Below are positions 15,795 to 36,171 of a stretch of 64,000 nucleotides of DNA, in pieces. Within the stretch, counting starts at the first letter, position 1. Every line of letters starts with the position of its first letter. The notes below the pieces were generated by a model. It was given only the letters and a program-made list of their open reading frames with translations. It was not told where the DNA came from and searched no databases. The stretch is from Terrimicrobiaceae bacterium (GTDB lineage: Bacteria > Verrucomicrobiota > Verrucomicrobiia > Chthoniobacterales > JAATET01). The position numbers and the translations under genes were made by a program. The stretch is from the NCBI GenBank assembly GCA_028713285.1, contig JAQTOP010000002.1:36427-100426 (forward strand), read 5' to 3'.

Positions 15795-15810
15795 GGCATC
15801 GTCGAATGCT

Positions 15811-15859: not shown

Positions 15860-15941
15860 TACAGGTTTTTTTGAACAGGTAGCGATGACTCCGGGCCTCC
15901 CGATGGGGGGCGACGCCCCAACCCAGCAAAGGTCCGGTTTT

Positions 15942-16374
15942 TCAACCGAGCTTGGAAACCACTTGCTCGTAATCCCAACCATTGATCCGGCACATCGCTC
16001 TTGCGTGCTCGTCCCAGGTGGGTTCATCGGCCGGACGGCCGGCCAGAAAGCAGTCGATCGCCAGATAGCGCAACGGATGTTCCGATGTGCATTGAATGGA
16101 GTGAAGCACCGTGGGAGGAATGCGGGCCACGTCTCCCGGGAAAAACCGGATGCGGCTCCAGGTCGGACCCGATTCGAAGCACGCCTTCCCCCTCGAGAAT
16201 GTGGAAGACCTGTTCGGCATCGTCGTGCTTGTGAAGCGGAGGCGCCTCGCCGGGATTCAGAATCACCACGAACACTTCCGACGTGATGGAATCCGAGCGA
16301 TCAATGATCAGATCATTGATATGCGTCGGAAACCGGTAGCGCCTCGATGAGTCGAGTTGGTAAACGTATTTCAT
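15942..16374 (-). pseudogene. Cupin-domain protein split by a +1 frameshift near 16131-16147
   Basis: N-terminal frame MKYVYQLDSSRRYRFPTHINDLIIDRSDSI...HKHDDAEQVFHILEGEGVLRIGSDLEPHP; the fold continues in another frame as FFPGDVARIPPTVLHSIQCTSEHPLRYLAIDCFLAGRPADEP...VVSKLG. Confidence 0.7.
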
Positions 16375-16494
16375 ATTGATTGCCCAATGCCGGCTCGCGG
16401 ACGGCGAAAATGCTCCAAGTCCCAAACGTCTGTCGCATTTCTTTCGTCGGTCATGGACCGGCGCTGCAATCGAAAATATTCCCGAGCTGTCTGC

Positions 16495-17373
<879 letters not shown>

Positions 17374-17424
17374 GGGCTTGGGCGGCTTTGCGTGGGTGAA
17401 AGTTGAGTGGATTCCCGCGGAGGA

Positions 17425-18615
17425 TCATGCCTGCTGCTTCGCGGCGGCGACGGCGAGCGTCGCGGCCTCGGTGAGGCCGTTGGCGGTTTGGATCGGCAGG
17501 CCGGACTCGGCGAGGAGTTTTTTGCCGAGTTCGACGTTCGTGCCTTCGAGGCGCACGACGAGGGGAACAGGCAGGCTCACGGCCTTCACGGCGTTGATGA
17601 TGCCCTGGGCGATCACGTCGCAGCGCATGATGCCCCCAAAAATGTTCACGAGGATCGTCTTCACCTTTTCGTCGGCGATCAAAATCTTGAATGCCTCGGT
17701 GACCTGCTGCTCGGTCGCGCCGCCGCCCACGTCGAGGAAGTTCGCGGGCTCGCCGCCGTGGTATTTTACGATGTCCATCGTGGCCATCGCGAGGCCGGCG
17801 CCGTTCACCAGGCAGGCGATGTTGCCGTCGAGACCGATGTAATTGAGGTTCGACTTCGAGGCCTCGACCTCGCGCGGATCTTCCTCGGCAATGTCGCGGA
17901 AGGCGGCCACGTCGGGATGGCGGAAGAGCGCGTTGTCGTCGAAATTAAACTTCGCATCGAGCGCGAGGACGTCTCCCGTCTTCGTGATGACGAGCGGGTT
18001 CACCTCGACCATGGAGCAGTCGCAGGCGATGAAGAGTTCGTAGATCGTAAGGAAGATTTTCGCGGCCTTTGGCATCTGCGCGGAGGTGAAGCCAAGCCGC
18101 TTCGCGATTTTGCGCGCCTGGTAGGCCTGCAGGCCGAGCGTCGGATGGATCGGCTCGCGGAGAATCCTGTGTGGCATTTCCTCCGCGACTTTCTCGATCT
18201 CGACGCCGCCCTCGGTGCTCGCGATGATGAGCGGGCCGGCGATCCCGCGGTCCATGAGGATCGCAAAATAGAACTCCTTCTCAATCTCGACGCTCTCGGC
18301 GATAAGCACGGTATTCACGACGCGGCCGGCGGGGCCGGTCTGGTGCGTGACGAGCGTCTGGCCGAGCATTTTGCCCGCAACCTCCGCGGCCTGCTGCGTG
18401 CTGTCGCAGAGCTGCACGCCGCCCTTGAAGCCGCTGGTGAACATCCCTTTCCCGCGGCCGCCGGCGTGAATCTGCGCCTTCACCACGAGGTGGCTGGCGC
18501 CGAGCCCGGCCGCGACGTCCTTCGCCTCGGCGACGGTGGTGGCGGGAAATCCCTTGGGAGTGGCGACGCCGTATTTTTCGAAGAGTTGCTTGGCCTGAAA
18601 TTCGTGAATGTTCAT
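17425..18615 (-). CDS. sucC: Succinyl-CoA ligase (ADP-forming) beta subunit
   Basis: [58 protein letters not shown]. Confidence 0.95.
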
Positions 18616-18666
18616 TCGTCGTGCGGCGACTCGCGGATCGCCCGAGGAGGTTTGCGAGCCATCGGC

Positions 18667-19554
18667 TTACCGATTCACCTTTCGCTTTGCAAGGGCGGAG
18701 CGGGATTTCAAAGTCCCGCCCGCTTCTCTTCGCGGCCGCAGTCGATACATGCTCGGACTTTGCCCGGTCACGCGGCGAAACTGTTTGTTGAAGTATTGGG
18801 GATCGGGGATGCCCACTTTGCGCCCGATTTCGAGAATCGGAAGCCTGGTGGAAAGCAGCAAATGCCGGGCGAGTTCCATGCGGCGCAAAAGAAGATAGTG
18901 CAGGATCGTCATTCCATACTGCTGGCGGAAAAGGCGGGAAAGGGCGTTGGCGCTCCGTCCCATCGAGGCGCTTAATCCCGGAACCGTGACCTGCCGGTGG
19001 GGTGTGGCATCGATGGCGCGCCGCAGATCGGCGAGCGTCTTCTCGTGCCAGATTCCCGGCCTGGCGCGCGTTCCGCGACTCCCCTGCAAGTGAAGCCAGA
19101 GCAGGAGTTCCTGAAGCGAGGCCGAAGCCGCGGCCGCGGCCGGGGAATCCTCCGCTCCGCCGGCCTGGCGATAATAATCAATCACTTTCAGAAACCGTTC
19201 CCGCGCCGCGGCGACCAGAGGACCCGGACGGAAGTGGATCGGCAGCCGAAGGTTCGTTTTTTTCCCAGCTCCCCGCGCCGGATAAAAATGGACGCACAAA
19301 TGCTGGCCGCTTTCCCGCAATTCATAGACGGATTCCCTGTTTTCCGGCGAGAGCGTCATGTCACCCGGTTGAAGGTGGAAGCAGGTCCCTCCGATCCAGA
19401 CCTTGCCCGCATAATCGTGGAGATGCACGGCGATGAGGGAATCCGAGTAACCCCGGTTGCAGCCCGGCACATTCATCGGGAATCTTCCCGCACTGCCGAC
19501 GACAGGAAGGTGGCGGGCAGGCCATGCGATGAATTTCGGCTCAGTCTTCACCAC
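18667..19554 (-). CDS. AraC-family transcriptional regulator
   Basis: C-terminal double HTH: ANALSRLFRQQYGMTILHYLLLRRMELARHLLLSTRLPILEIGRKVGIPDPQYFNKQFRRVTGQSP. Confidence 0.9.
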   Translation of the reverse strand: MVKTEPKFIAWPARHLPVVGSAGRFPMNVPGCNRGYSDSLIAVHLHDYAGKVWIGGTCFHLQPGDMTLSPENRESVYELRESGQHLCVHFYPARGAGKKTNLRLPIHFRPGPLVAAARERFLKVIDYYRQAGGAEDSPAAAAASASLQELLLWLHLQGSRGTRARPGIWHEKTLADLRRAIDATPHRQVTVPGLSASMGRSANALSRLFRQQYGMTILHYLLLRRMELARHLLLSTRLPILEIGRKVGIPDPQYFNKQFRRVTGQSPSMYRLRPRREAGGTLKSRSALAKRKVNR

Positions 19555-19662
19555 CGAGGCAATGTCAAAAAATTACCACTGATCCAAGTTTATTCCAATT
19601 GAGACACCGGGCCAAAGCAACGAGGATGCAATAAATCTACCATTTGAAAGAACGAGAGACCC

Positions 19663-21594
19663 ATGGCTTGGTTTACATCCCCCGACAACTGCATCAATCG
19701 TCCCCAACTTCCCGCCGGCTGGCTGGAGCAAATCATCAATGGAAGGGACGCGGTCGGCGAAACGATCGCGAAGTCCCTGCTGGCCGATCTCGACCGCCTG
19801 CAGCGTCCGTGCTTTCTTGCGCTCGACGGATACAAGGGCGCGAAGTTGCAGCCGTTTCTGGACGGAATCCGCGCGAGGCTTGAAGCGGCGGGCGTGGAGG
19901 TTGCCGCGCTGAACGTCAACGATGTCTTTCGCTCAAAGGCGGAGATAGATGAAATCGCGCGGCCTTGCGAGAAGCCGGAGGATCCTTCGTTCGGACGGGT
20001 GTTCGCGGGCAACATCGAGGACTTGATTGATCCGGCGAAAGTCCGGGCGACGACGGAGCGTTGGGAGAAACTGCGCGCGGCCAAGGGCAGGCGCACGGTG
20101 CTGATTTGTCACGGCGTTGGGGCGGGTCTCGCGCTGTGGCGGCATTTGTTTGACCGCGCGGCCTTTTGCGACGTGACGCGGGAGCAGGTCATCATTCGTT
20201 CGGAGCGGGGCGGGCTTTTGCCGGTGGGGGAGGACGTGTCCGCCGGCTATCCGTTCAAACGGATCTACTACTTCGAATACCCGCTGCTCAACCGGCACAA
20301 GAAGCAACTCCTCAAGAGCATCGACTGGTATATCGACGACTCCGGCGAGGAGGACCCAAAGCTTGTGCCGGCCGAGGTCTATCACGCGCTGATCACCGAG
20401 CTGGCGGGCCGGCCGGTCTGTTTCAAAGTCTTTTACATGCCGGGGATGTTCGGCGGCACGGAGTTCTCGAAGCGGTTCAATGTGCCGGGGCTGCCGAACA
20501 ATAGCTGGGACTATGAAATCAGCGTGGGCGACAATCATTTGCTCATCGATCCGGGCGATGGACGGATATTGGAAATGCCGTTTTACAATTTGATCTGGGA
20601 GCAGCCGTTGCGCTTTTTGGGGGCGTATTCCAGCGCGACTTATCCCGACCATTTTCCCATCGCCATTTATATGCAGGACGGCTGGTTCGCGGATCCGAAA
20701 GAGCCCGGATTCAAGCGGACCCACATGCCGAATCACATCCACCCCGACACCGCCTACTGTCGCGAGCATTTCAACGAGCCGATCGGGCGCTATGAAACCT
20801 ATTACATCGTGCGTGCGGACGAGGGCGCCTGCACGATGCATGGCTTCAAGGACGACGCGGACATCGATGCCTACATCGGCGAGGTCAGAAAATCGGCGGA
20901 GACCCACGAGGAATTCGACTGGCGCAAATATATCCACGAGCACCCCAGCAAGACCGGCGAGTTGCATCAGCTCCCGCCCGGCACCGTGCATGGAACGGGT
21001 GGGCGGCAGGTGATCCTGGAGATCGATACGAACCCGAGCCGCGAATCGACCGAGTATTCGTTCTTTCTCTACGACTATTGCCGGCCCTGTTTCAACTATG
21101 AGAAGCTCGACATGACCGGCAAGCCGCTGAAACTCACGGTCGAGCACAGCCTCGCCATCATGCGCCGCAACCGGCGGCAGAAATACATGGCGGAAAAAGT
21201 CCGGCCTGCGCCCGTTTGCATTCGCTCGGGGGAGGACTGGCGGGAAATGTCATTCCCGATGCATTACAACATGCCCTACCAGATCAACCGGTTCGAGTTT
21301 AAGACGAAGGTCGAGGATGATACGCGGGATATGTTTCATTGCATCGCGCTGACACTCGGAACCAAGGTGCGCGTTTATTCCAAGCGCGATCCTTCCAACG
21401 AATTCGTCCTCGAGGACTGCGACAACATCGTGCTGCCGGCCGGCTTCGGTCCGTATGTCCTGGAGAATCTAGGTGACGGCCCGTGCGAGATCATCAAGAC
21501 ATTTCTTATCACCGAACCGCGGGCGCACATCGACAAGGAGCAGGAGGAGAAAGATTGGGGCGTGGATCCAGACGGTCCGGAAAAGGTGTCGTGA
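19663..21594 (+). CDS. Two-domain protein: kinase-like N-terminus fused to class I mannose-6-phosphate isomerase-like cupin
   Basis: C-terminal FYMPGMFGGTEFSKRFN, IHEHPSKTGELHQLPPGTVHGTGGRQVILEIDTNPSRE (PMI-like metal-binding region); N-terminal FLALDGYKGAKLQPFLDGIRARL resembles uridine-kinase-type folds. Confidence 0.7.
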   Translation: MAWFTSPDNCINRPQLPAGWLEQIINGRDAVGETIAKSLLADLDRLQRPCFLALDGYKGAKLQPFLDGIRARLEAAGVEVAALNVNDVFRSKAEIDEIARPCEKPEDPSFGRVFAGNIEDLIDPAKVRATTERWEKLRAAKGRRTVLICHGVGAGLALWRHLFDRAAFCDVTREQVIIRSERGGLLPVGEDVSAGYPFKRIYYFEYPLLNRHKKQLLKSIDWYIDDSGEEDPKLVPAEVYHALITELAGRPVCFKVFYMPGMFGGTEFSKRFNVPGLPNNSWDYEISVGDNHLLIDPGDGRILEMPFYNLIWEQPLRFLGAYSSATYPDHFPIAIYMQDGWFADPKEPGFKRTHMPNHIHPDTAYCREHFNEPIGRYETYYIVRADEGACTMHGFKDDADIDAYIGEVRKSAETHEEFDWRKYIHEHPSKTGELHQLPPGTVHGTGGRQVILEIDTNPSRESTEYSFFLYDYCRPCFNYEKLDMTGKPLKLTVEHSLAIMRRNRRQKYMAEKVRPAPVCIRSGEDWREMSFPMHYNMPYQINRFEFKTKVEDDTRDMFHCIALTLGTKVRVYSKRDPSNEFVLEDCDNIVLPAGFGPYVLENLGDGPCEIIKTFLITEPRAHIDKEQEEKDWGVDPDGPEKVS

Positions 21595-21680
21595 GGGAGG
21601 GCTTCGCGTTCCTACCTTCTTTGTGACATTTCTTCCTCGCTTGAGCTTCTCCAGAACGGCGAAGACAAGTTCGTTCTTCC

Positions 21681-23825
21681 ATGAAGATCGTTCACATCGT
21701 TTTCAACTCCCACATCGACCCCGTCTGGCTTTGGCCCTGGCAGGCGGGGCTGGATGCCTTGCTCGCGACCTGCCGCATCGCCTGCGACATGCTGGATCGG
21801 CATCCCAGCCTGATATACAATCGGGGAGAGGCGTGGGTGTACCGGCAGATCGAGCTGATCGATCCTGACCTTTTCTCCCGAATCAAGGCTCATGTTCATG
21901 CCGGCCGGTGGGAAATCGTGGGCGGCTGGTGGATTCAGCCCGACTGCAACCAGCCCAGCGGCTTTGCCCTCGAGAAACAAATCGAGCTGGGAAGGGAGTT
22001 CTTTACCTCCCGCTTCGGGCACTTTCCAGAGGTGGCCTACAATGTGGACAGTTTCGGCCACGCCGCGACCCTTCCCGGCTACCTGGCAACCCACGGCCAG
22101 AAGTATTATGTGATGATGCGCCCGCAGGAGCATGAAAGGGCGCTTCCGGCCCGGCTCTTCCGCTGGCGCGGGTACCCCGGGGGCCAGGAAGTGACCGCTT
22201 TCCGGATCGCAGGCAGTTACAATGCGGGCGATATCAAATGGGAGCACATCGACAAATCCCTGACCGAATTGCCGGAAGGCATTCGGGATACCATGTGCTT
22301 TGTCAGCGCGGGCGATCATGGGGGAGGCCCCACCGAAAAACAAATCGCGTGGATTCAGGAAAACCAGCACGCGGTGGACGGCGTGAAGCTCGAATTCTCC
22401 TCCCCGGCCCGGTTCTTCGCCCGGGTGGCACCACAAATTCCGAGCCTCCCTCTCGTGACGGGAGAGCTGCAAATGCACGCCATCGGATGCTATTCCGTTC
22501 ATCGCCAGATAAAGGCCGGACTGCGCCGGGCCGAAGACCTGATGCATCAGGCCGATTCCATTCGCAGCCGGCTGGGGAACCGCGCCGCCTCGCTGCCGGA
22601 TCTGCGAAGAGGATGGGAGCAAATATGCTTCAATCATTTTCACGACACTCTCGGCGGGACGTGCATTCCCAGCGCCAACCTTCAGGCGATCGACCAGATT
22701 GGAGAAGCGGCGTCCCTTGCCGGCGAAAACCTCCAGTTGGGATTGCGCATTCTCCTGGCGGATCTCCCCGAGAATCCCGCGCACCGGATGGTGGTTTACA
22801 ATCCAGGCCCGCGGGACTTCGGCGGCTATTTTGAAGCGGAACCGTGGACGGAGGGCATGCCCTGGAAAAACGTGCGCATCCTCGACGAAAAGGGGAAGAC
22901 CGTTTCGGGACAACTCGTCCACACCGAGGCGAGCTGCGGGGGGATGCACCGGGTACTTTTTCCCGTCCAGGTTCCCGCCGGAGAGCGGCGCGTGCTTCAT
23001 TTGCGCCGCGACCTCAAACCCGCCCACCCAGCCGCTCCGGACGCCATCGTCAAAGGAAAGACGCTTCAAAACCGCCTGGGCGTCACCGTGGTTCCGGGTG
23101 CGCGCACGGCGCTGGTCTTCGGCTCGAAAAGCGCGGGGAACACCCTGCGTCCCGAGTTGGAACTGATCGACGATCCTTCCGACACCTGGTCGCATCGGAT
23201 CGACCGCTATGATGAAAAGGCCGCCGCCCGGCCCAGGTGGGATCGCGCGCAATTCCTCGATCATGGGCCGTTGATGGCCTCCTTTCTACAGACGGGCGCC
23301 ATCTCTCAATCCCGTCTGCGAGCCGAGTATCGCGTCCACGCCCGCCGTTCGTGGGTGGAGCTGCGATTGCAGGTCCACTGGATGGAGAAGCACAAGCTCC
23401 TCAAGCTGGTGCTGCGGCTGCCCGATCTGGGGACGGAACGGATGGACGGAATTTTGGGCGGACAGTTGACCCGGCCGAATTCCGGCGCGGAGAGTCCCTT
23501 GCGGGATTGGACACTTTTTTCCTTGGAAAATGGAGGGAAGCTCGCGGTGGTGTGCCCCGACGTTTACGCCCTGGATGCGACGAAAAGGCGCCTTCGCCTC
23601 ACGCTGCTGCGCAGTCCGCTCCTGGCCCACCACGAGCCGAATCCGGGAACGGATCCCCGCGCGACGATCGCGGATCAAGGCGTTCACGAGTTCCGCTTCC
23701 TTTTTCGTGTCGGCCCGCGTTTGCGTCCCGAGGATCTCGAACACGAAGCCTGGCAATTGCGGGAGCCGCCCCTGTATGCCGACACGACCAGGGGAATGCC
23801 CGCCAGCTGCTGGGCGGGTCTGTAG
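21681..23825 (+). CDS. Glycoside hydrolase family 38 alpha-mannosidase-like protein
   Basis: VHIVFNSHIDPVWLWPWQAG; GRWEIVGGWWIQPDCNQPSG; VAYNVDSFGHAATLPGYL (GH38 nucleophile region). Confidence 0.85.
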   Translation: MKIVHIVFNSHIDPVWLWPWQAGLDALLATCRIACDMLDRHPSLIYNRGEAWVYRQIELIDPDLFSRIKAHVHAGRWEIVGGWWIQPDCNQPSGFALEKQIELGREFFTSRFGHFPEVAYNVDSFGHAATLPGYLATHGQKYYVMMRPQEHERALPARLFRWRGYPGGQEVTAFRIAGSYNAGDIKWEHIDKSLTELPEGIRDTMCFVSAGDHGGGPTEKQIAWIQENQHAVDGVKLEFSSPARFFARVAPQIPSLPLVTGELQMHAIGCYSVHRQIKAGLRRAEDLMHQADSIRSRLGNRAASLPDLRRGWEQICFNHFHDTLGGTCIPSANLQAIDQIGEAASLAGENLQLGLRILLADLPENPAHRMVVYNPGPRDFGGYFEAEPWTEGMPWKNVRILDEKGKTVSGQLVHTEASCGGMHRVLFPVQVPAGERRVLHLRRDLKPAHPAAPDAIVKGKTLQNRLGVTVVPGARTALVFGSKSAGNTLRPELELIDDPSDTWSHRIDRYDEKAAARPRWDRAQFLDHGPLMASFLQTGAISQSRLRAEYRVHARRSWVELRLQVHWMEKHKLLKLVLRLPDLGTERMDGILGGQLTRPNSGAESPLRDWTLFSLENGGKLAVVCPDVYALDATKRRLRLTLLRSPLLAHHEPNPGTDPRATIADQGVHEFRFLFRVGPRLRPEDLEHEAWQLREPPLYADTTRGMPASCWAGL

Positions 23826-23838
23826 GGCTTTCAAGAAT

Positions 23839-24972
23839 ATGAATGGTCAAAAACGCGTTATCTCAGGACAGGAGAGCTGGACATTTTCCACGAAGGACGT
23901 CGAAGCCGCCGTGACCCGGCAGGGGGGGCATCTGGCCCCGGTGCGTTTTCGCATCGGCGGGCGATGGGTCGAGCCGTTCGATATTGCTCCCTGGGCGGAG
24001 GAGAAGGTGGCTCCGGGCACGCACCAAGTGCTCCGCGTGATGCGTGGCGATTTTTTCTGCATGCCATTTGGCGGCAATGAAACACCGAGCCACGGTGAGC
24101 AGCATCCTCCCCACGGTGAAACGGCGAATGCGCGATGGAGGCTCGAATCGGGCTCCGCCCAGCATCTGCATCTTTCCCTGCGAACTTCCATCCGGGAAGG
24201 CAGGGTGGATAAGCGGATCCGGTTGATTCCCGGCCACACCGCTCTCTATTTGCAGCATGTGATCTCGGGAATGACGGGCCCCATGTGCCTGGGGCATCAC
24301 GCCATCCTCAAAATCCCGGAGGGAGCCGCCGGGCGGGTGAGCCTGAGCCCGTTTCGATTCGGTCAGGTTTTCCCTGGTCAACTTGAGGAGTCGGCGAAAG
24401 GGGGATACTCGATCCTGAAGCCGGGAGCGAAATTTAAAACCCTGTCGCGCGTCCCTCAAACGGACGGAAAATGGGCCGACCTCTCCGTCTATCCCGCGCG
24501 CGAAGGCTACGAAGACCTCGTCCTGATGGCTTCGGAAACCACACTTCCGTTTGCGTGGACCGCGCTCACCGTGCCGGAGGAAAACCATGTGTGGTTTGCT
24601 TTGAAAGATCCCCGCGTGCTGCCTTCGACCGTATTCTGGATATCAAACGGAGGGCGGCACTACGCCCCATGGAACGGCCGGCATCGGCGCGCCATCGGGC
24701 TGGAGGAAGTGGTCGCCAATTTTCATTACGGCCTGGCAGAGTCGGCCAGGGCCAACCCGCTGACGCGCGCGGGCACGCCAACCTGCGTGCGGCTCGATCC
24801 ACAACGGCCGTTCGCGGTGAACTATATCATGGCGATGGCCGAAATTCCGCGCGGCTTTGACATCGTGAAAACCATTCATTCGTCCGCCGACGGAAAATCC
24901 GTCCGCCTTGCCTCGAAATCGGGGAAGTCCGTTTCCGTGGCGGTGGATACCTCCTTCCTTTCCACCCAATAA
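23839..24972 (+). CDS. Galactose-mutarotase-like (aldose-epimerase fold) hypothetical protein
   Basis: Intact ORF within the sugar locus; RQGGHLAPVRF...RIRLIPGHTALYLQHVISGM pattern; no confident family name. Confidence 0.5.
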   Translation: MNGQKRVISGQESWTFSTKDVEAAVTRQGGHLAPVRFRIGGRWVEPFDIAPWAEEKVAPGTHQVLRVMRGDFFCMPFGGNETPSHGEQHPPHGETANARWRLESGSAQHLHLSLRTSIREGRVDKRIRLIPGHTALYLQHVISGMTGPMCLGHHAILKIPEGAAGRVSLSPFRFGQVFPGQLEESAKGGYSILKPGAKFKTLSRVPQTDGKWADLSVYPAREGYEDLVLMASETTLPFAWTALTVPEENHVWFALKDPRVLPSTVFWISNGGRHYAPWNGRHRRAIGLEEVVANFHYGLAESARANPLTRAGTPTCVRLDPQRPFAVNYIMAMAEIPRGFDIVKTIHSSADGKSVRLASKSGKSVSVAVDTSFLSTQ

Positions 24973-24985
24973 TTCCGTGCAAAAT

Positions 24986-27175
24986 ATGCGAACCAGCCAC
25001 CGAAACTACGAACAAAGCATGGGGCTTTGGATCAATGAGCCGTTGCTGCTTCATCCCGAAGAGATCGACCGATCCATCCACGAGCTTGCCGATGCGGGAT
25101 ACGACACCGTGCGGCTGTTTGTCCGGCACTCGAACTTTACCCTGCGCTGCCCGGAGGTTGTGGAAGCGGTTCGGCGCGCCGTGAAAACGGGCCATGAGCG
25201 GGGCATGCGCCTCGCCCTGGACTGCGAGCCGCACGAGCTCGTGGGGCGCGACATGGGGCGGCAGTTTCCCGGTGAAATGAGCAGCAAGCTGTTGCGGCAA
25301 TCGGTGCAAGTCGTGGATGGCCACTGGATCATGCGGGTTGAGCCGCCGTCGTTGGGCGGCTATGTGGGAGCCCCTCTGGATGGGGTTGAGGCGGCCTATT
25401 TGCGCGTGGAAGGGAACTTGAAGAAGATCGGCCTCGGCGACCATACCGTCAGTCGCGGTTTCCAGTGGTATCGCAATGGAAACGTCCACCGCGAGCTGTT
25501 CTATCGGGAAGGCGTGCCGGCGAGTCCCCACCCCGTTCACGAATTGCGCGGCTGCCTGCCAGGCAGCGTCAATGGGGAGCTGATCGTTTATCTGCGGTTC
25601 AGCGTGAGGACTGTCGTGGATTTCTGGTCGGAGGGTTGTCGCAGGTATTACGAGGAGCTTCTCGAATGCTACCGCGACATTCCGCTCGACGGCGTGGGTT
25701 GGGATGAACCTGCGGTCGCTGGCGATTGGAAGTGCTACCATTACGGCGCCGGCTTCGCCGCCGCATTTGAGAGGCTCAATGGCTATGCGCTGACTGACAG
25801 ACTTTACCTGTTGGATGAGCCGGGCATGTCCGCGGAAGCCGCCAAGGTCCGCCTCGATTACTACCGGACGCTTAACGAAGGCCTCGCGAGGGCGCAGGCA
25901 AATCTGATCGCCAAGGCGCGCTCTCTATTCGGCAAGGATCTTCTGCTCGGGACGCATCACACATGGCAGGGCGAAGCCGGCATCAACGATTACCGGTCCG
26001 GCGCGGTGGATTACTTCCGGTTGAATGACTGCATGGACGCGGGCTACACGGATGTTCCCCAATGGGACCCCGAATCGGTGGCGTATGCCTACACCTTGGG
26101 ATCCTCGCTGGGGCGGCTCACGCCATCCGGCGAAGCCGAGGTCAATACCTGGCACTGGATGCCCACGGTCAGCAACATTCACCACAACGTGAACTTGATG
26201 ACGTTGATGAATATCACCTGGTTCAACATCTGGTTCGGCCGCGACTGCGACTGCGTCATGCAGCAGGGACATTACACCTGGCCGACGACGGTGGCTTATA
26301 TGCAGCGCCACCGCGAGTTTCAGCGGCAGATCGGAAAGCGCCGCCCGGTGGCGGACGTGGCCATCTGGCACGGCTGGGAAGGCGTGTGTGCATGGAACAA
26401 GGCCAGTCTGGCCAACACTCACAAGACATTTTGTCTGAACACCAGCCGGCTGCTTATCGACCGCAGCGTCGCCGCTGATTTTATCGACAGCCGCCTCCTC
26501 GCTGGCAGCCGCATCGAGAATGGCCGGCTCGTGAACGATCTGGGCAGCTACCGTGTGCTTGTGATGCCTTACGCTCTTGTGCTGCCGGGCAAGGCATTCG
26601 AGGTGTGCGCCGCGTTCAGCCGCGCCGGAGGACGCGTCATTTTTGTCGGCACACCCGTTGCCGCCGACGATCAGGGATGCTCGCTCACCGACGCATTTGC
26701 CGGATTGCTTGGCATTCCGCCAATGACCGCGGAGCATTACATGGCGGGACTCGATGCCGTCTGCACGATGCCGGACTGCCGCCTGCAACGGCTGGAAGTC
26801 TGCCGTCCGCTTGCCGCCGGCCTGCCGCGCGCGCTGGTTTCCTGCGAGGGCGAGACGCACGGCGTGGTCAGCGAGGAGGGAAACGCGGTGTTCCTGACGG
26901 ATCTCGATCCTCAGGAACGCCTGCTCGAACGCATCGAGGATGCGCTGTCGGACGACGTGCAGGCGCACGGCAGCAATTTGCTCTGGCGGCTTTACCGGGG
27001 CGAGGAAGGGGACCTGCTGGTCGTGGTCGCGCGCGAAGACCGGCCCTTGCGCGGCATGGTGCGCTGGCAAGGCAGGTTGATCGAGCTGACCGACGGCTCG
27101 GTGGGATTATTTGAAATTCGCGGCGGAGAGCTGTCGGTCAAAGGCGATGTCGTCTGGAAGCCCCTGTCAATATGA
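24986..27175 (+). CDS. Putative glycoside hydrolase: TIM barrel plus GH42-type amidotransferase/trimerisation-like domain
   Basis: Barrel-like DGVGWDEPAVAGDW, LLLGTHHTWQGEAGINDY; followed by VADVAIWHGWEGVCAWN...NTSRLLIDRSVAADFIDSRLL...YRVLVMPYALVLPGKAF...GGRVIFVG. Confidence 0.55.
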   Translation: MRTSHRNYEQSMGLWINEPLLLHPEEIDRSIHELADAGYDTVRLFVRHSNFTLRCPEVVEAVRRAVKTGHERGMRLALDCEPHELVGRDMGRQFPGEMSSKLLRQSVQVVDGHWIMRVEPPSLGGYVGAPLDGVEAAYLRVEGNLKKIGLGDHTVSRGFQWYRNGNVHRELFYREGVPASPHPVHELRGCLPGSVNGELIVYLRFSVRTVVDFWSEGCRRYYEELLECYRDIPLDGVGWDEPAVAGDWKCYHYGAGFAAAFERLNGYALTDRLYLLDEPGMSAEAAKVRLDYYRTLNEGLARAQANLIAKARSLFGKDLLLGTHHTWQGEAGINDYRSGAVDYFRLNDCMDAGYTDVPQWDPESVAYAYTLGSSLGRLTPSGEAEVNTWHWMPTVSNIHHNVNLMTLMNITWFNIWFGRDCDCVMQQGHYTWPTTVAYMQRHREFQRQIGKRRPVADVAIWHGWEGVCAWNKASLANTHKTFCLNTSRLLIDRSVAADFIDSRLLAGSRIENGRLVNDLGSYRVLVMPYALVLPGKAFEVCAAFSRAGGRVIFVGTPVAADDQGCSLTDAFAGLLGIPPMTAEHYMAGLDAVCTMPDCRLQRLEVCRPLAAGLPRALVSCEGETHGVVSEEGNAVFLTDLDPQERLLERIEDALSDDVQAHGSNLLWRLYRGEEGDLLVVVAREDRPLRGMVRWQGRLIELTDGSVGLFEIRGGELSVKGDVVWKPLSI

Positions 27176-27218
27176 GCCACCCGCAGAGCAAAAACAAAAG
27201 GCCCTTTCAGCAGCCACG

Positions 27219-29882
27219 ATGAAAGAAAACATCGACACGATTTACCTCGTTCACCACACCCACACCGACATCGGATTCACAAACGAGCAGCCGGTGGTGA
27301 TGGATTTGCACGCGCAATTCATCGACCAGGCCATCGATCTTTGCGAGCAGACGGCGGACTATCCCAAGGGCAGCGCGTTGAAGTGGACCTGCGAGGCGAT
27401 GGGGACCGTGCTCTACTGGCTGCGGCATCGTTCCGACAGGCAAATCCAGCGGTTCGTGGATCTCGAAAAGCAGGACCGCATCGAGGTGACGGGAACTTTC
27501 GGCGTATTCAGCCAGTGCATCCCGCACGAGGCGATGTATCGGCAATTCTATCCCGCGGAAAAGCTCCGCAAGGACTACGGGATCAAGGTCACCACCGCGA
27601 TGCATTGCGACATCAACGGCCACAACTGGGGCATGGTGGAGGCGATGCTGGATTGCGGCATCGACGCCTTCAGCATGGCGATCAATGAAAACGTCGGACG
27701 CGCCGCATTCAATCGACAGCGGCCCAACGGCTTTTATTGGGAGGGAGCCAGCGGGAGGAAGATTCTGAGCTGGAACGGCCTGCACTATAACAGCAATAAC
27801 TACTTCGGATTTCCCGGCATCTGGGAACGATCCTATCGGGGTCTTCCCAGTGACAAGCAGGAGGCCGTGAAGTTGCTGCCCGCCTTCCTCGACTGGCTGA
27901 AGAAGCGGCAATATCCGTATCCGTTTTCCCTCTTCCAGGTGACTTACACCACCTTTGTCGATAACGGCCCGCCCGATCCAAGGCTGGCGGATTTTGTGCG
28001 CTGGTGGAACGAAAACGGGCATGCGCCCCGGATGGAGATCGTCACGCTGCGCGAGTATTTCGATGCGCTTCGCCGCCAACCGGCCGGCCTGCTGCCAACG
28101 CATCGCGGGGAGTGGACCGACTATTGGAATATCGGCGCGGCTTCCACCGCCTACGAAACTTCGCTGAACCGCCGCACCTATCATCGCCTCTACGAATCCG
28201 AGCTGGCCCTCGCCTGGGGCGATCCCATCCACGCGCTCGCACGCCGGCCCGAACTTCGGGAGTCCTGGGAAAACGCATGGTGGTATGACGAGCACACCTG
28301 GGGCGCCAACACGAGCATCGTCCAGCCGTTTCGCCAGCCCGCACGCAGCCAGTTGAACCAGAAGCTTAACTTCGCCTATCGCGCCCGAAGTTTTGCGCAA
28401 CTTACCCGGCTGGAAGCGATTGACCGCGTGGCCCGGTCGCTGCGAGGCGAGGGGGATGGCTACTACGTCATGGCCCTGAACCCGCTTCCGTGGGAACGCG
28501 AGGAACGCCTGCAATTTCCCTCCACATGGCTCGACACCGACGCCGCTGCAACGGTCAGCCATGTGCAATGCCTCGACCGCATCGAAGGTTCCGAACAACA
28601 GGGCCTGGGCGACCAGGCCATGGCAGTGTCGGAACCGGTCAGGATTCCGCCGATGGGCTACCGTCTGTTTCCCGCTGCTAGACTCAACGCGCAGACTGTT
28701 CCTCCGTCGCAAGGCAGGCCGGTGCGCGTGGCCAAAGCCGAGAACTCCTGGCTACGGGTCGAACTGGACGCGAAACGGGGCGGCATCAAGAGCCTCTTCG
28801 ACAAGAAGCGGCGGCGGGAGTGGGTCGATGCAAAACATGAATATTCGCTGGGCGGGTATGTCCATGAGCATTGCGAAGCTGGCAAGAATGCGACGGATAT
28901 GTATGGCGGACGGATGCAGATTTTCCTCGAGGCCGACTGGAGCAAGTTCATGGGCTATCGCGGCTGGAACGCGAATTGGCCGGCGGTCCGGCGCGGTGTG
29001 ACGAAGGTCGTCTCGCAAACCGCGACGACCTTGCCGGGCCAGATTCGATTCGTTCAAAAATGCCTCGCGCCAGGCGCGAAAAACGTCGAATACGAAATCA
29101 CGCTGGCGGAGGACAAAGCGTATGTGGACCTCAAAGTCACCATCGACAAACTGTGGGACACCGCGCCGGAGGCTTGCTATGTGACCTTTCCCTTTGCCCT
29201 GCCAAAATCGCGGCCCCGCTACCAGACGGCGGGCGGTGTGGTGCGTCCACATCTCGACCAGTTGCCGGATTGCAATCAGGACTATCACACCGCGCAGCAT
29301 TGGGCGGACCTTTCGAATGACAAATGCGGCGTCACCGTCACTACGGTGGACGCTCCCAATGTGATGTTTGGCGGATTCAACCTCGCGAAGCTGTTTGACA
29401 AACCGCGTCCAAACATTCCTCCGCTGCTATTGAGTGTCGCGATGACGAATTACTACCATGTCAATTACGCGGGCGGCCAGCTTGGTTCCACGACGTTTCA
29501 TTACCGGATCTTTCCGCACGATGCCTTTGATGGGGCGGAGTCCAATCGTATCGGACAGGAGGCGGCCTTCCCGCTGATCTGCCATCCCGTCATGAATCCC
29601 GCGGGAACCCGGCCTGGCAAATCCAGTCTCCTAACCCTAAGCAATCCCGCCATCGTGCCGCTGGCAGTCAAGCCCTCCGAAGACGGCAGGGCGCTCATCA
29701 TCCGACTCTACAACCCCCTGGACAAATCCCGGTCTCTCACGGCACGCCTGTTCTCCGAACCCCGCGAAATCTGGCAGTGCGACAACCTGGAGAACGCCAA
29801 AACCCAATTGCCGCACAAGGGAGGCAAGTTTACGGCCACCTTTTCGCCGCACGCGACGCTCGCCTTTCGGGTCGTTCTTTGA
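27219..29882 (+). CDS. GH38 N-terminal-like (DUF5054-like) glycoside hydrolase
   Basis: IYLVHHTHTDIGFT; DRIEVTGTFGVFSQCIPHEAMYRQFYPAEKLRKDYG; AMHCDINGHNWGMVEAMLDCGIDAFSM. Confidence 0.75.
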   Translation: MKENIDTIYLVHHTHTDIGFTNEQPVVMDLHAQFIDQAIDLCEQTADYPKGSALKWTCEAMGTVLYWLRHRSDRQIQRFVDLEKQDRIEVTGTFGVFSQCIPHEAMYRQFYPAEKLRKDYGIKVTTAMHCDINGHNWGMVEAMLDCGIDAFSMAINENVGRAAFNRQRPNGFYWEGASGRKILSWNGLHYNSNNYFGFPGIWERSYRGLPSDKQEAVKLLPAFLDWLKKRQYPYPFSLFQVTYTTFVDNGPPDPRLADFVRWWNENGHAPRMEIVTLREYFDALRRQPAGLLPTHRGEWTDYWNIGAASTAYETSLNRRTYHRLYESELALAWGDPIHALARRPELRESWENAWWYDEHTWGANTSIVQPFRQPARSQLNQKLNFAYRARSFAQLTRLEAIDRVARSLRGEGDGYYVMALNPLPWEREERLQFPSTWLDTDAAATVSHVQCLDRIEGSEQQGLGDQAMAVSEPVRIPPMGYRLFPAARLNAQTVPPSQGRPVRVAKAENSWLRVELDAKRGGIKSLFDKKRRREWVDAKHEYSLGGYVHEHCEAGKNATDMYGGRMQIFLEADWSKFMGYRGWNANWPAVRRGVTKVVSQTATTLPGQIRFVQKCLAPGAKNVEYEITLAEDKAYVDLKVTIDKLWDTAPEACYVTFPFALPKSRPRYQTAGGVVRPHLDQLPDCNQDYHTAQHWADLSNDKCGVTVTTVDAPNVMFGGFNLAKLFDKPRPNIPPLLLSVAMTNYYHVNYAGGQLGSTTFHYRIFPHDAFDGAESNRIGQEAAFPLICHPVMNPAGTRPGKSSLLTLSNPAIVPLAVKPSEDGRALIIRLYNPLDKSRSLTARLFSEPREIWQCDNLENAKTQLPHKGGKFTATFSPHATLAFRVVL

Positions 29883-29914
29883 AATTAAATGGGAAAATCC
29901 CCACGCTCCGCGCA

Positions 29915-31111
29915 ATGAAAACCAAGGAATTACGCATTGGAATCATCGGTTACAACTTTATGGGCAGGGCCCACTCGAATGGCTGGCTGCAGGCTGCGAA
30001 GTTTTTCGATCTCGAAAGCCTGCCGGTTCTTCAAGTTGCGTGCGGTCGCAACGGATCCGCCCTGCGCGCTTTTGCCGATCGGTGGCACTGGAAACACATT
30101 GAGACGGATTGGAAAAAGGTTGTGGAACGGGACGACGTGGATGTCATCGACATCTCGCTGCCGCAGCACCTGCACGCCGAGGTCGCCCTTGCAGCCGCGG
30201 AGGCGGGAAAGCACATCTTTTGCGAAAAGCCCATGGCACTGTCCTCCGGCGATGCCGGGCAAATGCTTCAGGCTGCAGAAAAGGCCGGCATCAAGCATTA
30301 CGTCAATCATAACTATCGTCGTTGTCCGGCCGTGCGTCTGGCGCGCCGGTTGATCGATGAAGGCAAAATTGGGCGCATTTTTCATTGGCGTGGCGCTTAT
30401 CAGCAGGACTGGATCGTCGATCCGGAATTTCCTCTCACCTGGCATCTGCGGAAGGAAACCGCCGGCACCGGCCCGCACGGCGACCTCAATTCGCACAGCG
30501 TGGACCTGGCCCACTATCTCGTTGGCGATGTAAAGTCCGTAAGCTGCTTGATGTCGAACTTCATCAAGGAGCGCCCACTGCCCGGCGAGGGCGCGGCGAC
30601 CTTCAGCGCAGGAAAAAGCACCGGTCCGCGCCGGACCGGGGAAGTCAGCGTCGAGGACGCCTCGCTCATGCTGGTGGAATTTGCCAATGGTGCCGTCGGC
30701 TCATTCGAGGCAACGCGATTTGCTCCCGGGCGAAAAAATCGCAATACCTTTGAGATATACGGCAGCGAGGGAAGCGTTGCTTTCGACTTGGAACGCATGA
30801 ACGAGCTCCAATACTTTTCCCGGCGGGATCCGGAATATGCCCAGGGATTCCGGACGATTCTTGCCACGGAATCCTCCCACGACTACATCGCGAACTGGTG
30901 GCCGCCGGGCCATACGATTGGTTATGAGCACACCTTTGTACACGGCATGGTGGACTTTATCAACGCCATCGACGGGAATCGGCCGATCGCTCCGGATTTT
31001 GCCGATGGTCTAAAATGCATCAAGGTGCTCGAGGCCGGAGCTCGATCCGCCGAAACCGGGCAGCGGGTGGCTGTTGACTCGATGCCAGCCTTGGAACGGA
31101 TAGCCTCGTAG
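29915..31111 (+). CDS. Gfo/Idh/MocA-family oxidoreductase
   Basis: RIGIIGYNFMGRAHSNGW; DVDVIDISLPQHLHAEVALAAAEAGKHIFCEKPMAL; GPHGDLNSHSVDLAHYLVG. Confidence 0.93.
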   Translation: MKTKELRIGIIGYNFMGRAHSNGWLQAAKFFDLESLPVLQVACGRNGSALRAFADRWHWKHIETDWKKVVERDDVDVIDISLPQHLHAEVALAAAEAGKHIFCEKPMALSSGDAGQMLQAAEKAGIKHYVNHNYRRCPAVRLARRLIDEGKIGRIFHWRGAYQQDWIVDPEFPLTWHLRKETAGTGPHGDLNSHSVDLAHYLVGDVKSVSCLMSNFIKERPLPGEGAATFSAGKSTGPRRTGEVSVEDASLMLVEFANGAVGSFEATRFAPGRKNRNTFEIYGSEGSVAFDLERMNELQYFSRRDPEYAQGFRTILATESSHDYIANWWPPGHTIGYEHTFVHGMVDFINAIDGNRPIAPDFADGLKCIKVLEAGARSAETGQRVAVDSMPALERIAS

Positions 31112-31122
31112 CTTCTTCCCAC

Positions 31123-32376
31123 ATGAAATTGACTCTCCCACTGCGCCTGATTCTCCTTGCGCCATCGATATTTCTGTCGAGCGACCTGCATGCCGCGCCA
31201 CTTATTCGGCCCAATGATGTGGTCGCGATCAACGGCGATTCGATTACCGCCCAGCAGCAATACTCGGTTTTTATCGAGGAATATCTCCTGGCCTGCCAGC
31301 CGGTGAAAAATGTTCGATCGATCAACTTTGGCGTGGGAGGCGCCACGGCCGGATATTTTGACGGGCGAATTGCGAGCGACATCCTGCCATTCAAGCCCAC
31401 CGTTGCCACAGCCTGCTTTGGCATGAACGACGGCCATTACCAGCCGATCAGCAAGGAAAATCAAGAGGCTTATCGCAAGGCGTATACATCTGCTTTGGAA
31501 AAGCTGAAGGCTGGCGGGGTGCGGACGATTATCGTCGGAGGACCGGGCTGCGTGGATGGAACTTATTTTCACAAGCCCGAGGTCACGGCCGATGGTTACA
31601 ATGAAACCTTGCGGGATCTGGGTGAAATCGCCCGTGGTATTGCGAAGCAGGAGGGATTCGTCTTCGCCGATGTGCATCAGGCGATGATGTCGGCGATGAC
31701 CGGGGCAAAGGCCGCCAACGCCTCCGACAGCTTTTTTAGCGGAGGTGATGGGGTTCATCCTCCGCCCAACGGCCATCTTGCGATGGCCTATGCCTTCCTC
31801 AAGGCATTAGGTTGCGACGGCGCCATCGGGACGATCACCTTCGATCTGTCGGCAGGCAGGGCGGCGGGCACTCCGGGTCATAAGGTTCTATCCATCAATG
31901 GCGGCTCGGTCGCAATTGAGAGCACACGTTATCCCTTTTGTTTTGTCGGAGATCTCGCTGCCACCAAGATCCTTCCCTACCTTCCTTTCAACCAGGACCT
32001 CAACCGATACACACTGATTGTCATGGGGCTTAAAACTTTCAAAGCAAGGGTGACATGGGGAGCGGACTCCAAAGAGTTTTCCGCCGCGGAGCTTGGAAAA
32101 GGAATCAATCTCGCCGCCGAATTTCTTAACAACCCCTTTTGCGAGCGATTCGCCGAGCTTCAGGAGTTCGTTCTTGCAAAGCAGGGTTATGAAATACCTT
32201 TGGCTCAAGGTATTTTGCATAAGACAACGCGCTTCAAAGCTCAGGAGCCAGAGCAGGGCGCCGCTTTGGATCAAATCGCGGAGACCGGCATCGATCTTCA
32301 ACACAAGCTCGCTGACCTGGCGGCTGGACGGGTTGTACCGGTGACTCATACGATCTCGATCGAGCCCGTTCCCTGA
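31123..32376 (+). CDS. SGNH/GDSL-family hydrolase, predicted secreted
   Basis: Signal-like N-terminus; VVAINGDSITAQQQYSVFI; FGVGGATA; ACFGMNDGHY; GGDGVHPPPNGHLAMAYAFLKAL. Confidence 0.85.
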   Translation: MKLTLPLRLILLAPSIFLSSDLHAAPLIRPNDVVAINGDSITAQQQYSVFIEEYLLACQPVKNVRSINFGVGGATAGYFDGRIASDILPFKPTVATACFGMNDGHYQPISKENQEAYRKAYTSALEKLKAGGVRTIIVGGPGCVDGTYFHKPEVTADGYNETLRDLGEIARGIAKQEGFVFADVHQAMMSAMTGAKAANASDSFFSGGDGVHPPPNGHLAMAYAFLKALGCDGAIGTITFDLSAGRAAGTPGHKVLSINGGSVAIESTRYPFCFVGDLAATKILPYLPFNQDLNRYTLIVMGLKTFKARVTWGADSKEFSAAELGKGINLAAEFLNNPFCERFAELQEFVLAKQGYEIPLAQGILHKTTRFKAQEPEQGAALDQIAETGIDLQHKLADLAAGRVVPVTHTISIEPVP

Positions 32377-32397
32377 CGAGCGTTCCCCCGGAGGGGT

Positions 32398-33201
32398 TCA
32401 CGGCTTTGGCCCAATAATTGCGAGGCCCTGACGCACTTTTCCCGGCCTGACTCCAAAATACTGGCGGAACACGCGGGAGAAATAAAACGGGTCGTCGTAT
32501 CCGCATTGCTCCGCCACCTCTGCAACCGACAGCTTCCCCTCGGAAAGAAGCCCTTCCGCCAATCGCATCCGCCGAGCTCGGGCATATTGCATCGGCGTCG
32601 TGTAGAACACAGACTGAAAGAGGCGGTGAAAATGCTCGGGGCTCAGATGAACCGTCCGTGCCGCGTCCCGCAGCGAGGGGCGTTTGTTTGCCTGACTGTT
32701 TAGGAATAGCAGCGCCGGCATCAGCCGCTCGTGGGACTGGCGAGCGCGGGGATCCTCCGTCGGCAGTCGCTCGAATGCCAGCCCCGCGACTTCCAGCAGC
32801 ATGGAATGAATGAAAAAGGCATCGTCCGCCGCGCGACGGGCAACGAATCGCTCGATTCGCCCACATGTCCGCTTCCATCGTTCCGCAGTGGCATTATCAA
32901 ACACTTGAACCCCGGGAAGCGAGCCCAGCCGTACGTCCAGCCACGGCGATACGAGACTGAAGTGCAGCCACTCGATGACGATCTCCGATTCGGCGCCATA
33001 GGAAACCTTTGAGTGGGGCGGGACCAGATAGAGTTGTTCGGGCGCGAGTCGAACGGTTTTCCCGCCAACTTCCACCCAGCCCCGTCCGCGCGTGGGATGA
33101 TAGAACTTGGCGGAGTCGCTCCATTCGTTTGTCCCTCCCCAGGATTCCGGACCGCGCACCGCAAGCCCTCCCGCGGAGATCTCCACGCCCATGTTGTGCA
33201 T
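32398..33201 (-). CDS. AraC-family transcriptional regulator (N-terminal cupin-type sensor)
   Basis: LRDAARTVHLSPEHFHRLFQSVFYTTPMQYARARRMRLAEGLLSEGKLSVAEVAEQCGYDDPFYFSRVFRQYFGVRPGKVRQ. Confidence 0.93.
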   Translation of the reverse strand: MHNMGVEISAGGLAVRGPESWGGTNEWSDSAKFYHPTRGRGWVEVGGKTVRLAPEQLYLVPPHSKVSYGAESEIVIEWLHFSLVSPWLDVRLGSLPGVQVFDNATAERWKRTCGRIERFVARRAADDAFFIHSMLLEVAGLAFERLPTEDPRARQSHERLMPALLFLNSQANKRPSLRDAARTVHLSPEHFHRLFQSVFYTTPMQYARARRMRLAEGLLSEGKLSVAEVAEQCGYDDPFYFSRVFRQYFGVRPGKVRQGLAIIGPKP

Positions 33202-33270
33202 ATCAATATATTACATGTTATTGTTCGGTTGAGCTATGGATATCGCCGAATAAAGCAGTATTCTCCATGC

Positions 33271-34137
33271 ATGACTCAAGCAGCACCTTCCACAATCGAG
33301 TTTGAAGAGCCTGCGGTTGATCTTTCCTTCAAACCCGTGGACAATCCGCGCCCGAAGCGGCTCAGTTCCGGCCAGATTGCCGAGTATAACGAGCGCGGGT
33401 TTCTGAAGCCCTTCGATATCTTCAACCCCCTCGAGGCTGGACGAAATCGCGCCTACTTCGACTACATTCTCGCGGCAATGCGGTCCTGCAACGACGGACG
33501 CGACACCTACGCGATCAACGGATATCACACGCGGTGCAAGGGAATCTACGAAATGGCCGTTGAACCGCGCATTCTGGACCTCGTCGAGGACATTGTCGGC
33601 CCGAACATCATCATCTGGGCGACACATTTCTTTTGCAAGATTCCCCACGATCCCAAGGCCGTGCCCTGGCATCAGGACGCATCCTACTGGCCCCTTACGC
33701 CCGCCCGGACCGTGACCGCCTGGCTCGCCATCGACGACGTGAACGTGGAAAACTCCGCGATGCACGTGATTCCACGCACCCACAACAGGGGCCATCTCAA
33801 ATGGAAAATCACCAAGGGACCCGCCGTCCTACAGCAGGAAATCGAAAGTGTGGAGCAATACGACGATCCAGTTCCAATGGAACTCCGCGCCGGCCAGATT
33901 TCCCTGCACGCGGACATGACCGTGCATGGCTCGCAGCCGAACCGGTCCGCGCGCAGACGGTGCGGATTGACCATCCGATACTGCCCTCCGGAGGTGCGGC
34001 CGCTCGACCCCTTGTGGGCCGAGAGCAGCATCATCGCCCGCGGCGAAGATACTCATGGCTGGTGGGCAAACAACGCAATGCCGCCGGGCGAAGACCTCAC
34101 CTCCAGGGACAAGCCAAGATCCATCGGAGGCAATTGA
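33271..34137 (+). CDS. Phytanoyl-CoA dioxygenase (PhyH)-family Fe(II)/2OG oxygenase
   Basis: VPWHQDASYWPLTPARTVTAWLAIDDVNVENSAMHVIPRTH; LHADMTVHGSQPNRSARRRCGLTIRY. Confidence 0.88.
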   Translation: MTQAAPSTIEFEEPAVDLSFKPVDNPRPKRLSSGQIAEYNERGFLKPFDIFNPLEAGRNRAYFDYILAAMRSCNDGRDTYAINGYHTRCKGIYEMAVEPRILDLVEDIVGPNIIIWATHFFCKIPHDPKAVPWHQDASYWPLTPARTVTAWLAIDDVNVENSAMHVIPRTHNRGHLKWKITKGPAVLQQEIESVEQYDDPVPMELRAGQISLHADMTVHGSQPNRSARRRCGLTIRYCPPEVRPLDPLWAESSIIARGEDTHGWWANNAMPPGEDLTSRDKPRSIGGN

Positions 34138-34271: not shown

Positions 34272-35258
34272 TTAGTTTTTGCCTTCTGGCTGGGGTGACT
34301 GCAGCAAAGCCGTAAGTTCCGCGACCCAGGCCGCAAGGTCGGGATGCGTGGGATACGCGCGAACAAGCTTTGTCATTTCAAGGAGCCCCCGATTGGCCTC
34401 GTCGATCACAATCATGTCTCGCGCCTGACGCCAGAGGAGCCTGGGGAATTCCACTTGCGCAAAGGTGTCGCGCTGGACGTCGCCCCGGGACTTTTCGGCG
34501 TTTGCGCTCTGAAATTCGATCTGGAGTTTCCAGGTATCCAGTAGATGGGGGTCCTTCTGCGCACGAAGCGAAGTCCGAATATCCTTTTCGAGGATTCCCT
34601 CCAGCGAGCCGGCGGTCATCTCCCAATCGTGCAACTTTTCAAGTTCGCCCGTCAGCAGATTTGCGCGAACAATCGGACTCGACGTGATCGGTCGATCAAG
34701 CATCGCCCTGCCGGGGTCCGTCGCTGTCATCTCACCCCCAAACTCGCTCAGTGCTCCCGACAACGCCGTCACGTAATCCCAAAGTTCGGCAAGAGGCGGC
34801 TTGCCGTCGGAATCCGCTGCGCGCTTGAGACTGATCGCCAGATAACGCAAATGTAATCGCGCCGCCGCGGCGAACGCCTTATTCTTGGTGAGCAACGCTT
34901 TGTTATTCTCGCGCCAGGTTTGAAAGCGATACGAATCGCCTGAGTTCGCCGAAAAATCGGCGTCATGCACCGAGTCGGCGTAAAGCCGGACCGCACTGTC
35001 GTCAGATTTCGCGGCCGCGAGCAGCTTCACAGCCAGAGAATCAAAGCGCTCGCGGCGGGTATTCGCCTGCTTCGCTTGAATTGCCTTCAACTCCTTGATC
35101 AGAGCAGCCTTATCAATGACCGTCCCGTCACCGCCGGTCTGCGCATTTCCAGAACCAGCCGCGGCAATTGCCACGGCGACAACACAAAGCAACTTAAGGG
35201 GCACGCCTGTTGATCCTAGCCGGCCTTGCTGCTTTGTCCAGCACCCATCTCGCGACAT
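34272..35258 (-). CDS. Hypothetical secreted/periplasmic protein
   Basis: Intact 328-aa ORF with signal-like LKLLCVVAVAIAAAGSGNAQ; no family recognised; start may be internal. Confidence 0.6.
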   Translation of the reverse strand: MSRDGCWTKQQGRLGSTGVPLKLLCVVAVAIAAAGSGNAQTGGDGTVIDKAALIKELKAIQAKQANTRRERFDSLAVKLLAAAKSDDSAVRLYADSVHDADFSANSGDSYRFQTWRENNKALLTKNKAFAAAARLHLRYLAISLKRAADSDGKPPLAELWDYVTALSGALSEFGGEMTATDPGRAMLDRPITSSPIVRANLLTGELEKLHDWEMTAGSLEGILEKDIRTSLRAQKDPHLLDTWKLQIEFQSANAEKSRGDVQRDTFAQVEFPRLLWRQARDMIVIDEANRGLLEMTKLVRAYPTHPDLAAWVAELTALLQSPQPEGKN

Positions 35259-35307
35259 TCTTTGGGCTTGCCGGGTATTTCATAGGTCGTTATCATACTT
35301 AATCGGT

Positions 35308-36171
35308 ATGGAATTGCGGCATTTGAGATATTTCGTGGCGGTGGCGGAACGTTTAAATTTCACGGAAGCTGCGCGGCATTTGGGCATGGCACAGCCGCCC
35401 TTGAGCGTTCAGATCCGCAAACTTGAGGAGGAAATAGGGTGTCAGCTTTTCAACAGGAGAAACCGTCGTATCGAGCTGACTCCTTCCGCGCACCTGTTCT
35501 TAGTCCACGCCAGGGATGTTCTTGAACGAGCGGATCAGGCGATTCGACACGTTCAGGATCATGTGGAAGGTCGTGCCGGCGAAGTGTCCCTCGCTTGGAC
35601 GGACGGTGCGCTTTCGGAGAGGCTGACACGCCGACTGCGGAAATTTTTGCGCAAACACCGGGGACTGCGACTCCATGTTCGGCGGGCGGAATACGGAGCC
35701 CGTTTGACTCGTGCCAGGGAAGGGGCTGATGGGATGATCACGGAGTTTTCCACGATCGACCTGCCATCGGAGGCCATTCCGCTCGAGCGAAGCCCCGTGC
35801 AAGTCGCCGTTCACCCCAAACACCGACTAAGCGATCGAAATGAGTTTGTCCCGGCGGACCTTGTCGGTGAAACCCTGATCCTTTCCCCTTTTGAGCAACG
35901 AACCCCCGGCGAGCGAAGCCTGCTCGATCAAATCGAGGCGGCAGACATCAAAGTGTCGGTTCTTTTGGGCCCAACCAGTCTCCAGGACCGCTTTTGGCAG
36001 GCTTCGCTCGGCTTGGGAATCTGCGTTTGTACCGGAGCAGACCGGGGTGGGTTGGACTGCAAACGTCTGACATGGAGCGGGTCGCCCGTGGAGATTGTCA
36101 CGGCCCTCCTTTTGAACCCGGATTCACGGGCGAGCGCTCTGCCGGCGCTGATCGAGGCTATTCGGGAATAA
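35308..36171 (+). CDS. LysR-family transcriptional regulator
   Basis: [50 protein letters not shown]. Confidence 0.95.

Follow-up and report, generated by a model that had tools for sequence, protein, structure and literature searches.

A candidate AraC-controlled alpha-mannoside utilisation locus in the genome of a Terrimicrobiaceae bacterium

Ten genes of apparent sugar catabolism, occupying about 15 kb between sucDC and a gene adjoining mnmG in the genome of a Terrimicrobiaceae bacterium, raise the question of which substrate they serve and whether they form a single pathway. The DNA analysed (hereafter the window) is a stretch of 64 000 nucleotides inside a contig of 100 kb, one of the 157 that make up a draft assembly of 3.53 Mb. 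We lean towards reading the interval as a lineage-specific, AraC-controlled alpha-mannoside utilisation operon with an adjacent unit of a second AraC gene (AraC2) and a PhyH gene. The island would then be a plausible, fairly ordinary sugar-use locus and a lineage-specific variant of a mannoside-utilisation cassette with a few uncharacterised enzymes. The overall interpretation given in the initial annotation of this DNA was partly supported.

Organisation of the island

All ten genes listed initially were present on the strands assigned to them (Table 1), several with later starts; those tabulated for P0004, P0005, P0006, P0007 and the PhyH gene are the likelier ones. Seven plus-strand genes, encoding phosphomannose isomerase (PMI)-like, GH38a, mutarotase-fold, GH42-like, GH38b, Gfo/Idh and SGNH proteins (19663-32376), are arranged head to tail and, with the likely starts, are separated by 86, 13, 13, 43, 32 and 11 bp. 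Because these gaps amount to only 11-86 bp, the run resembles one operon. The AraC1 and PMI-like genes diverge. AraC2 converges on the SGNH gene and diverges from the PhyH gene, which therefore looks like a transcription unit of its own. Scans for promoter-like and terminator-like sequences yielded nothing exceeding shuffled controls, and a crude comparison of the two AraC intergenic regions found no shared DNA motif. The GC content of the island (0.58-0.63) is below that of the left flank and similar to that of the right flank; composition shows no clear edge and is not decisive.

Pfam matches in the island were to AraC (twice), GH38 (twice), Gfo/Idh/MocA, SGNH/GDSL and PhyH, with no above-threshold Pfam or NCBIfam match for the PMI-like, mutarotase-like and GH42-like proteins. 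The labels given initially to these three are nonetheless backed by a profile match to 1qwr, a fold match to 3nre and fold matches to GH106, GH112 and GH42 proteins, respectively. Judged by eye from the N-termini, an obvious Sec signal is present only on the SGNH protein, in keeping with the cytoplasmic processing proposed at the outset.

Table 1. Features of the island and of its surroundings in the window
Feature	Position	Strand	Remarks
sucDC	16495-18615	-	left flank
AraC1 regulator	18667..19554	-	HTH_18/HTH_AraC
P0002, PMI-like	19663..21594	+	N-terminal domain and C-terminal PMI-like half; 1qwr profile match
P0003, GH38a, alpha-mannosidase-type	21681..23825	+	Glyco_hydro_38N above cut-off, 150.6 bits; no signal peptide seen
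P0004, aldose-1-epimerase (mutarotase) fold	23839..24972	+	AlphaFold and Foldseek
P0005, GH42/GH112/GH106-like multidomain protein	24986..27175	+	predicted fold
P0006, GH38b	27219..29882	+	Glyco_hydro_38N/38C/38C2 above cut-off
P0007, Gfo/Idh/MocA sugar dehydrogenase	29915..31111	+	near levoglucosan-dehydrogenase group
P0008, SGNH/GDSL esterase	31123..32376	+	Sec-type N-terminus; Lipase_GDSL_2; GDS, GMND and DGVH motifs
AraC2 regulator	32398..33201	-	HTH_18, AraC_binding
P0010, PhyH Fe(II)/2-oxoglutarate-type oxygenase	33271..34137	+	PhyH, 100.7 bits
conserved uncharacterised gene and mnmG	34272-38032	-	right flank
lipoamide dehydrogenase gene	45229-46737		precedes phytase-like and ABC genes
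phytase-like gene	46769-48082		between lipoamide dehydrogenase and ABC genes
ABC permease and ATPase	47887-49588		polar amino acid/ectoine-like, not sugar

Predicted enzymes

The mannose theme proposed initially was borne out by two GH38 proteins, a PMI-like protein and a mutarotase fold. GH38a has relatives at 44-53% identity in 15 other genomes of the phylum, among which the motifs HID, VDSFG and FHD are retained, so that the HxD motif, the Asp nucleophile and the FHD His are all present. The motifs H-x-D, D-x-x-G and E-H-T of GH38b, with catalytic roles assigned by eye, are likewise retained among its relatives. Because identity to these relatives is only about 23-34%, the specificity of GH38b could differ from theirs. 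A third GH38 gene in the same genome (G000:C146:8017-8775, locus L001) has a stronger Pfam match than both island copies.

P0002 is, judged from its sequence, a member of a large, poorly annotated family of PMI-like proteins of about 600 amino acids, for which we know of no assay. Profile searches against the PDB matched it to known PMIs (1qwr, E 4.8e-8; 1zx5, E 7.4e-4), with the resemblance confined to about 120 residues in the C-terminal half. The metal ligands of canonical type I PMIs are Gln, His, Glu and His, the first of which (Gln) corresponds to His358 of P0002. At this first position the P0002 subfamily has His and the other subfamily Gln; H360, E378 and H443 are invariant in the P0002 subfamily. 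The N-terminal domain contains conserved glycines without a Walker A motif. Two divergent PMI-like paralogues were seen close together in each of two other genomes (G389 and G385; loci L083 and L084).

P0004 had no sequence relatives in Pfam or PDB sequence searches, and its assignment comes from an AlphaFold model (mean pLDDT 81.7) with a predicted fold that matched the aldose 1-epimerases 3nre (E 7e-13), 3dcd and 3k25 in Foldseek. Four residues, H92, H154, D214 and E289, are invariant in eight sequences and are similar to the residues with which galactose mutarotases carry out catalysis.

For P0005, the AlphaFold model (mean pLDDT 83.3) predicted an architecture of a barrel, a Rossmann-like domain and a beta-sandwich. 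In Foldseek its best matches were to a rhamnosidase of GH106, to phosphorylases of GH112 and to enzymes of GH42, each at a TM-score near 0.5, and the Glyco_hydro_42M match of 16.6 bits fell under the Pfam cut-off of 25.8 for GH42. In an alignment of nine sequences the WDEP tetrad of the GWDEP region is invariant and Glu411, which the model places on barrel strand seven, is shared by the five closer sequences alone; from these patterns we infer E267 and E411 to be candidate catalytic residues. Relatives of P0005 share 42-65% identity, and a scan of genome contigs with P0005 by itself gave no match. P0005 is a candidate for a new hydrolase family.

P0007 contains the N- and C-terminal Gfo/Idh/MocA Pfam domains and the EKP lysine, with PDB matches to 4h3v (394 bits) and 6a3f (321 bits); against the NCBIfam model LevoglcsnDh it scored 376.5 bits, below the equivalog cut-off of 650. 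P0010 carries the WHQD and VHGSQPN motifs and has 6zyk as its best PDB match.

Conservation and origin of the neighbourhood

A counterpart of part of the island was found in Planctomycetes bacterium syqfu (CP087563.1:2442546-2464450, L164), which contains, in a single run, genes for AraC, PMI-like, GH38b, P0004-like, GntR, ROK, SIS and GH38a proteins. Identities to the island proteins are 33% for AraC, 77% for the PMI-like protein, 28% for GH38b, 52% for the mutarotase and 46% for GH38a, and the AraC gene is again divergent from the PMI-like gene. This locus differs from the island in gene order, in the additional GntR, ROK and SIS genes and in having no P0005, P0007, SGNH or PhyH gene. The neighbourhood had been considered open to the objection that no relative might share it; because this planctomycete holds five of the island genes together, the objection does not apply. 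The PMI-like protein encoded there (L164:10001-11908) is the closest relative of P0002 in a scan of GTDB genomes with an alignment of PMI-like proteins, the second best sharing 40%. Since the neighbouring genes are only 28-52% identical, the figure of 77% hints at horizontal transfer of the PMI-like gene apart from its neighbours.

Parts of the same grouping recur more widely. Genes for P0004-like proteins (53-58% identity) lie near PMI-like genes in four loci from Limisphaerales, Planctomycetota and Verrucomicrobia records (L168, L170, L171 and L172), one of which (L171) also carries GH38b beside the mutarotase/PMI pair. An MFS sugar porter gene is found near the pair in L170 and L172 and also in L167, which has a truncated P0004-like gene. 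In G047, a genome of the same taxonomic order as the island's host, the genes run AraC, GH38b, kinase-like (assigned by eye) and PMI-like. Relatives of GH38a adjoin ROK- and SIS-like genes in G133 and G320 and RbsABC-like genes in G176, G318, G300 and G324, one ATPase of the latter being checked in Pfam and the remaining subunits called by eye. Among 90 PMI-like loci of at least 9 kb, a GH38b relative was present in 13, an RbsA-like ATPase in 11 and an MFS porter in seven; this set was chosen by PMI-like or GH38b matches and includes some duplicates, making the counts descriptive only.

The full set of island genes turned up in no other genome; the neighbourhood is conserved as a core and not as a whole. 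P0005 was rejected as part of that core, as its relatives are never near core genes elsewhere: the flanks fetched for eight loci held no close island relative, a more distant relative (L045) having one weak Gfo/Idh superfamily match in its flank, and in a sample of 388 genomes of the phylum no other genome had both P0002 and P0005 at the thresholds applied. Recurrence across Verrucomicrobiota and Planctomycetota ties the PMI-like and P0004 families, both poorly annotated, to GH38 alpha-mannosidases, from which testable functions follow. We found no direct description in the literature of a GH38 and PMI locus in Planctomycetes or Verrucomicrobia.

Closer to home, P0002, P0005 and P0007 were unmatched in three genomes of the same genus at the thresholds used, and close relatives of GH38a and GH38b were also absent from one of these (G003). 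The same-genus genomes G003 and G001 retain the uncharacterised right-flank gene, mnmG and pdh genes. In both, sucDC precedes a block whose window counterpart (12992-15760) stands on the opposite side of sucDC, and the flanking regions fetched from these genomes contain no counterpart of the interval at 18.7-34.2 kb. Because the order of the block and sucDC (window 12992-18625) is swapped and the interval lacks a counterpart, comparative gene order places the island at a rearrangement breakpoint. Gain in its own lineage seems likelier than loss in three.

Proposed pathway and alternative readings

The Pfam search of the ten island proteins revealed neither a transporter nor a SusC/SusD pair. 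The initial observation of a missing uptake gene thus holds for the interval itself; as a distinguishing feature it is not supported, some relatives having MFS or RbsABC-type transporters adjoining. Two ROK genes and several sugar porters lie on other contigs of the same genome; of its five Sugar_tr matches, one shares 34% identity with the porter that accompanies the pair in L172. Since some relatives carry a transporter locally and sugar porters are encoded at other sites of this genome, the missing transporter represents a local gap. The case shows how a cassette that has a transporter in other genomes can have a rearranged relative without one. With ROK genes and sugar porters available in the genome, the local lack of a kinase and a transporter is therefore no obstacle to sugar use. 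The ABC genes at 47.9-49.6 kb were rejected as serving the island, as they look like transporters for polar amino acids or ectoine. A large gene for an AcrB/AcrD/AcrF-type RND efflux protein is located on the minus strand of the window at 57322-60489.

Drawing on gene content, motifs, folds and partial synteny, the alpha-mannoside model proposes a substrate, an order of steps, a route of transport, the use of a kinase and a mode of regulation. Alpha-mannose oligosaccharides or glycosides would possibly be de-esterified first, outside the cytoplasm, by the SGNH protein and imported via a transporter encoded elsewhere in the genome. In the cytoplasm, GH38a and GH38b would release mannose, the anomers of which P0004 would equilibrate; a ROK kinase encoded elsewhere would phosphorylate it, and P0002 would convert mannose-6-phosphate to fructose-6-phosphate. 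P0005 might cleave another linkage in the same substrate, and a sugar or glycoside released alongside the mannose might be oxidised by P0007, perhaps at C3.

It is possible, if tentative, that two functions share the run, a mannose module (PMI-like, GH38a, mutarotase and GH38b) having been joined by P0005, P0007, the SGNH gene and AraC2/PhyH, which would serve a different sugar or a modified glycoside. Genes other than those of the module do not recur as a group, P0005 lies between module genes here and never near them elsewhere, and close relatives of P0007 (in syqfu and others) are solitary, away from core genes. However, the intergenic spacing next to P0005, P0007 and the SGNH gene, at 11-43 bp, suggests a single transcript, in G336 a relative of P0008 (40%) and one of GH38a are about 3.3 kb apart, and AraC1-like (40-43%) and PhyH genes adjoin GH38a in G445 and G436. 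The involvement of modified sugars, which had been read from the oxidoreductase and the oxygenase, found little backing, as it depends on one Gfo/Idh protein with solitary relatives and on a single PhyH protein encoded outside the operon-like run. Quite unlikely is a route in which P0007 oxidises a modified or anhydro mannoside to a 3-keto glycoside, by analogy with levoglucosan degradation, and the remaining enzymes process the product. P0007 is related to levoglucosan dehydrogenase, and LgdA performs 3-dehydrogenation (PMC7676230), but its score is far under the LevoglcsnDh cut-off and the island has, judged by annotation rather than by comparison with LgdB sequences, neither an elimination/hydration partner nor a keto-sugar lyase. 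The lgdA-lgdC locus resembles the island in its Gfo/Idh/MocA dehydrogenase and differs in lgdB1, lgdB2 and lgdC, which are without annotated island counterparts.

Breakdown of xanthan or of another acetylated polysaccharide side chain, suggested by a GH38 pair with an esterase and a PMI, is very unlikely. The R. UCG13 xanthan locus has two GH38 alpha-mannosidases and esterases (PMC10881899), and Paenarthrobacter ilicis 6C has a xanthan region with GH38, an adjacent sugar kinase (N-acetylglucosamine kinase) and the manA isomerase, the proteins of which are overabundant on xanthan (PMC12772297); both share intracellular end steps with the island. In contrast to it, these loci include PL8, GH9 or GH5, GH3 or GH94 and local ABC transporters, and a search of the island found no PL8, GH88, GH9, GH5 or GH94 protein. 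A rather doubtful extension of the alpha-mannoside model is that P0005 and its relatives from Verrucomicrobiota form a previously undescribed GH family of the GH42/GH112/GH106 structural type and that the PMI-like proteins are bifunctional, which together would make an undescribed mannoside pathway; the conserved N-terminal domain would then have a second activity in mannose entry. Among known systems, the N-glycan locus of Streptococcus pneumoniae shares GH38 with the island, there occurring with a ROK protein and other mannosidases (PMC5215778); it has GH92, GH125, GH29 and GH20, in place of which the island encodes a pair of GH38 proteins, a PMI-like protein and a mutarotase-fold protein.
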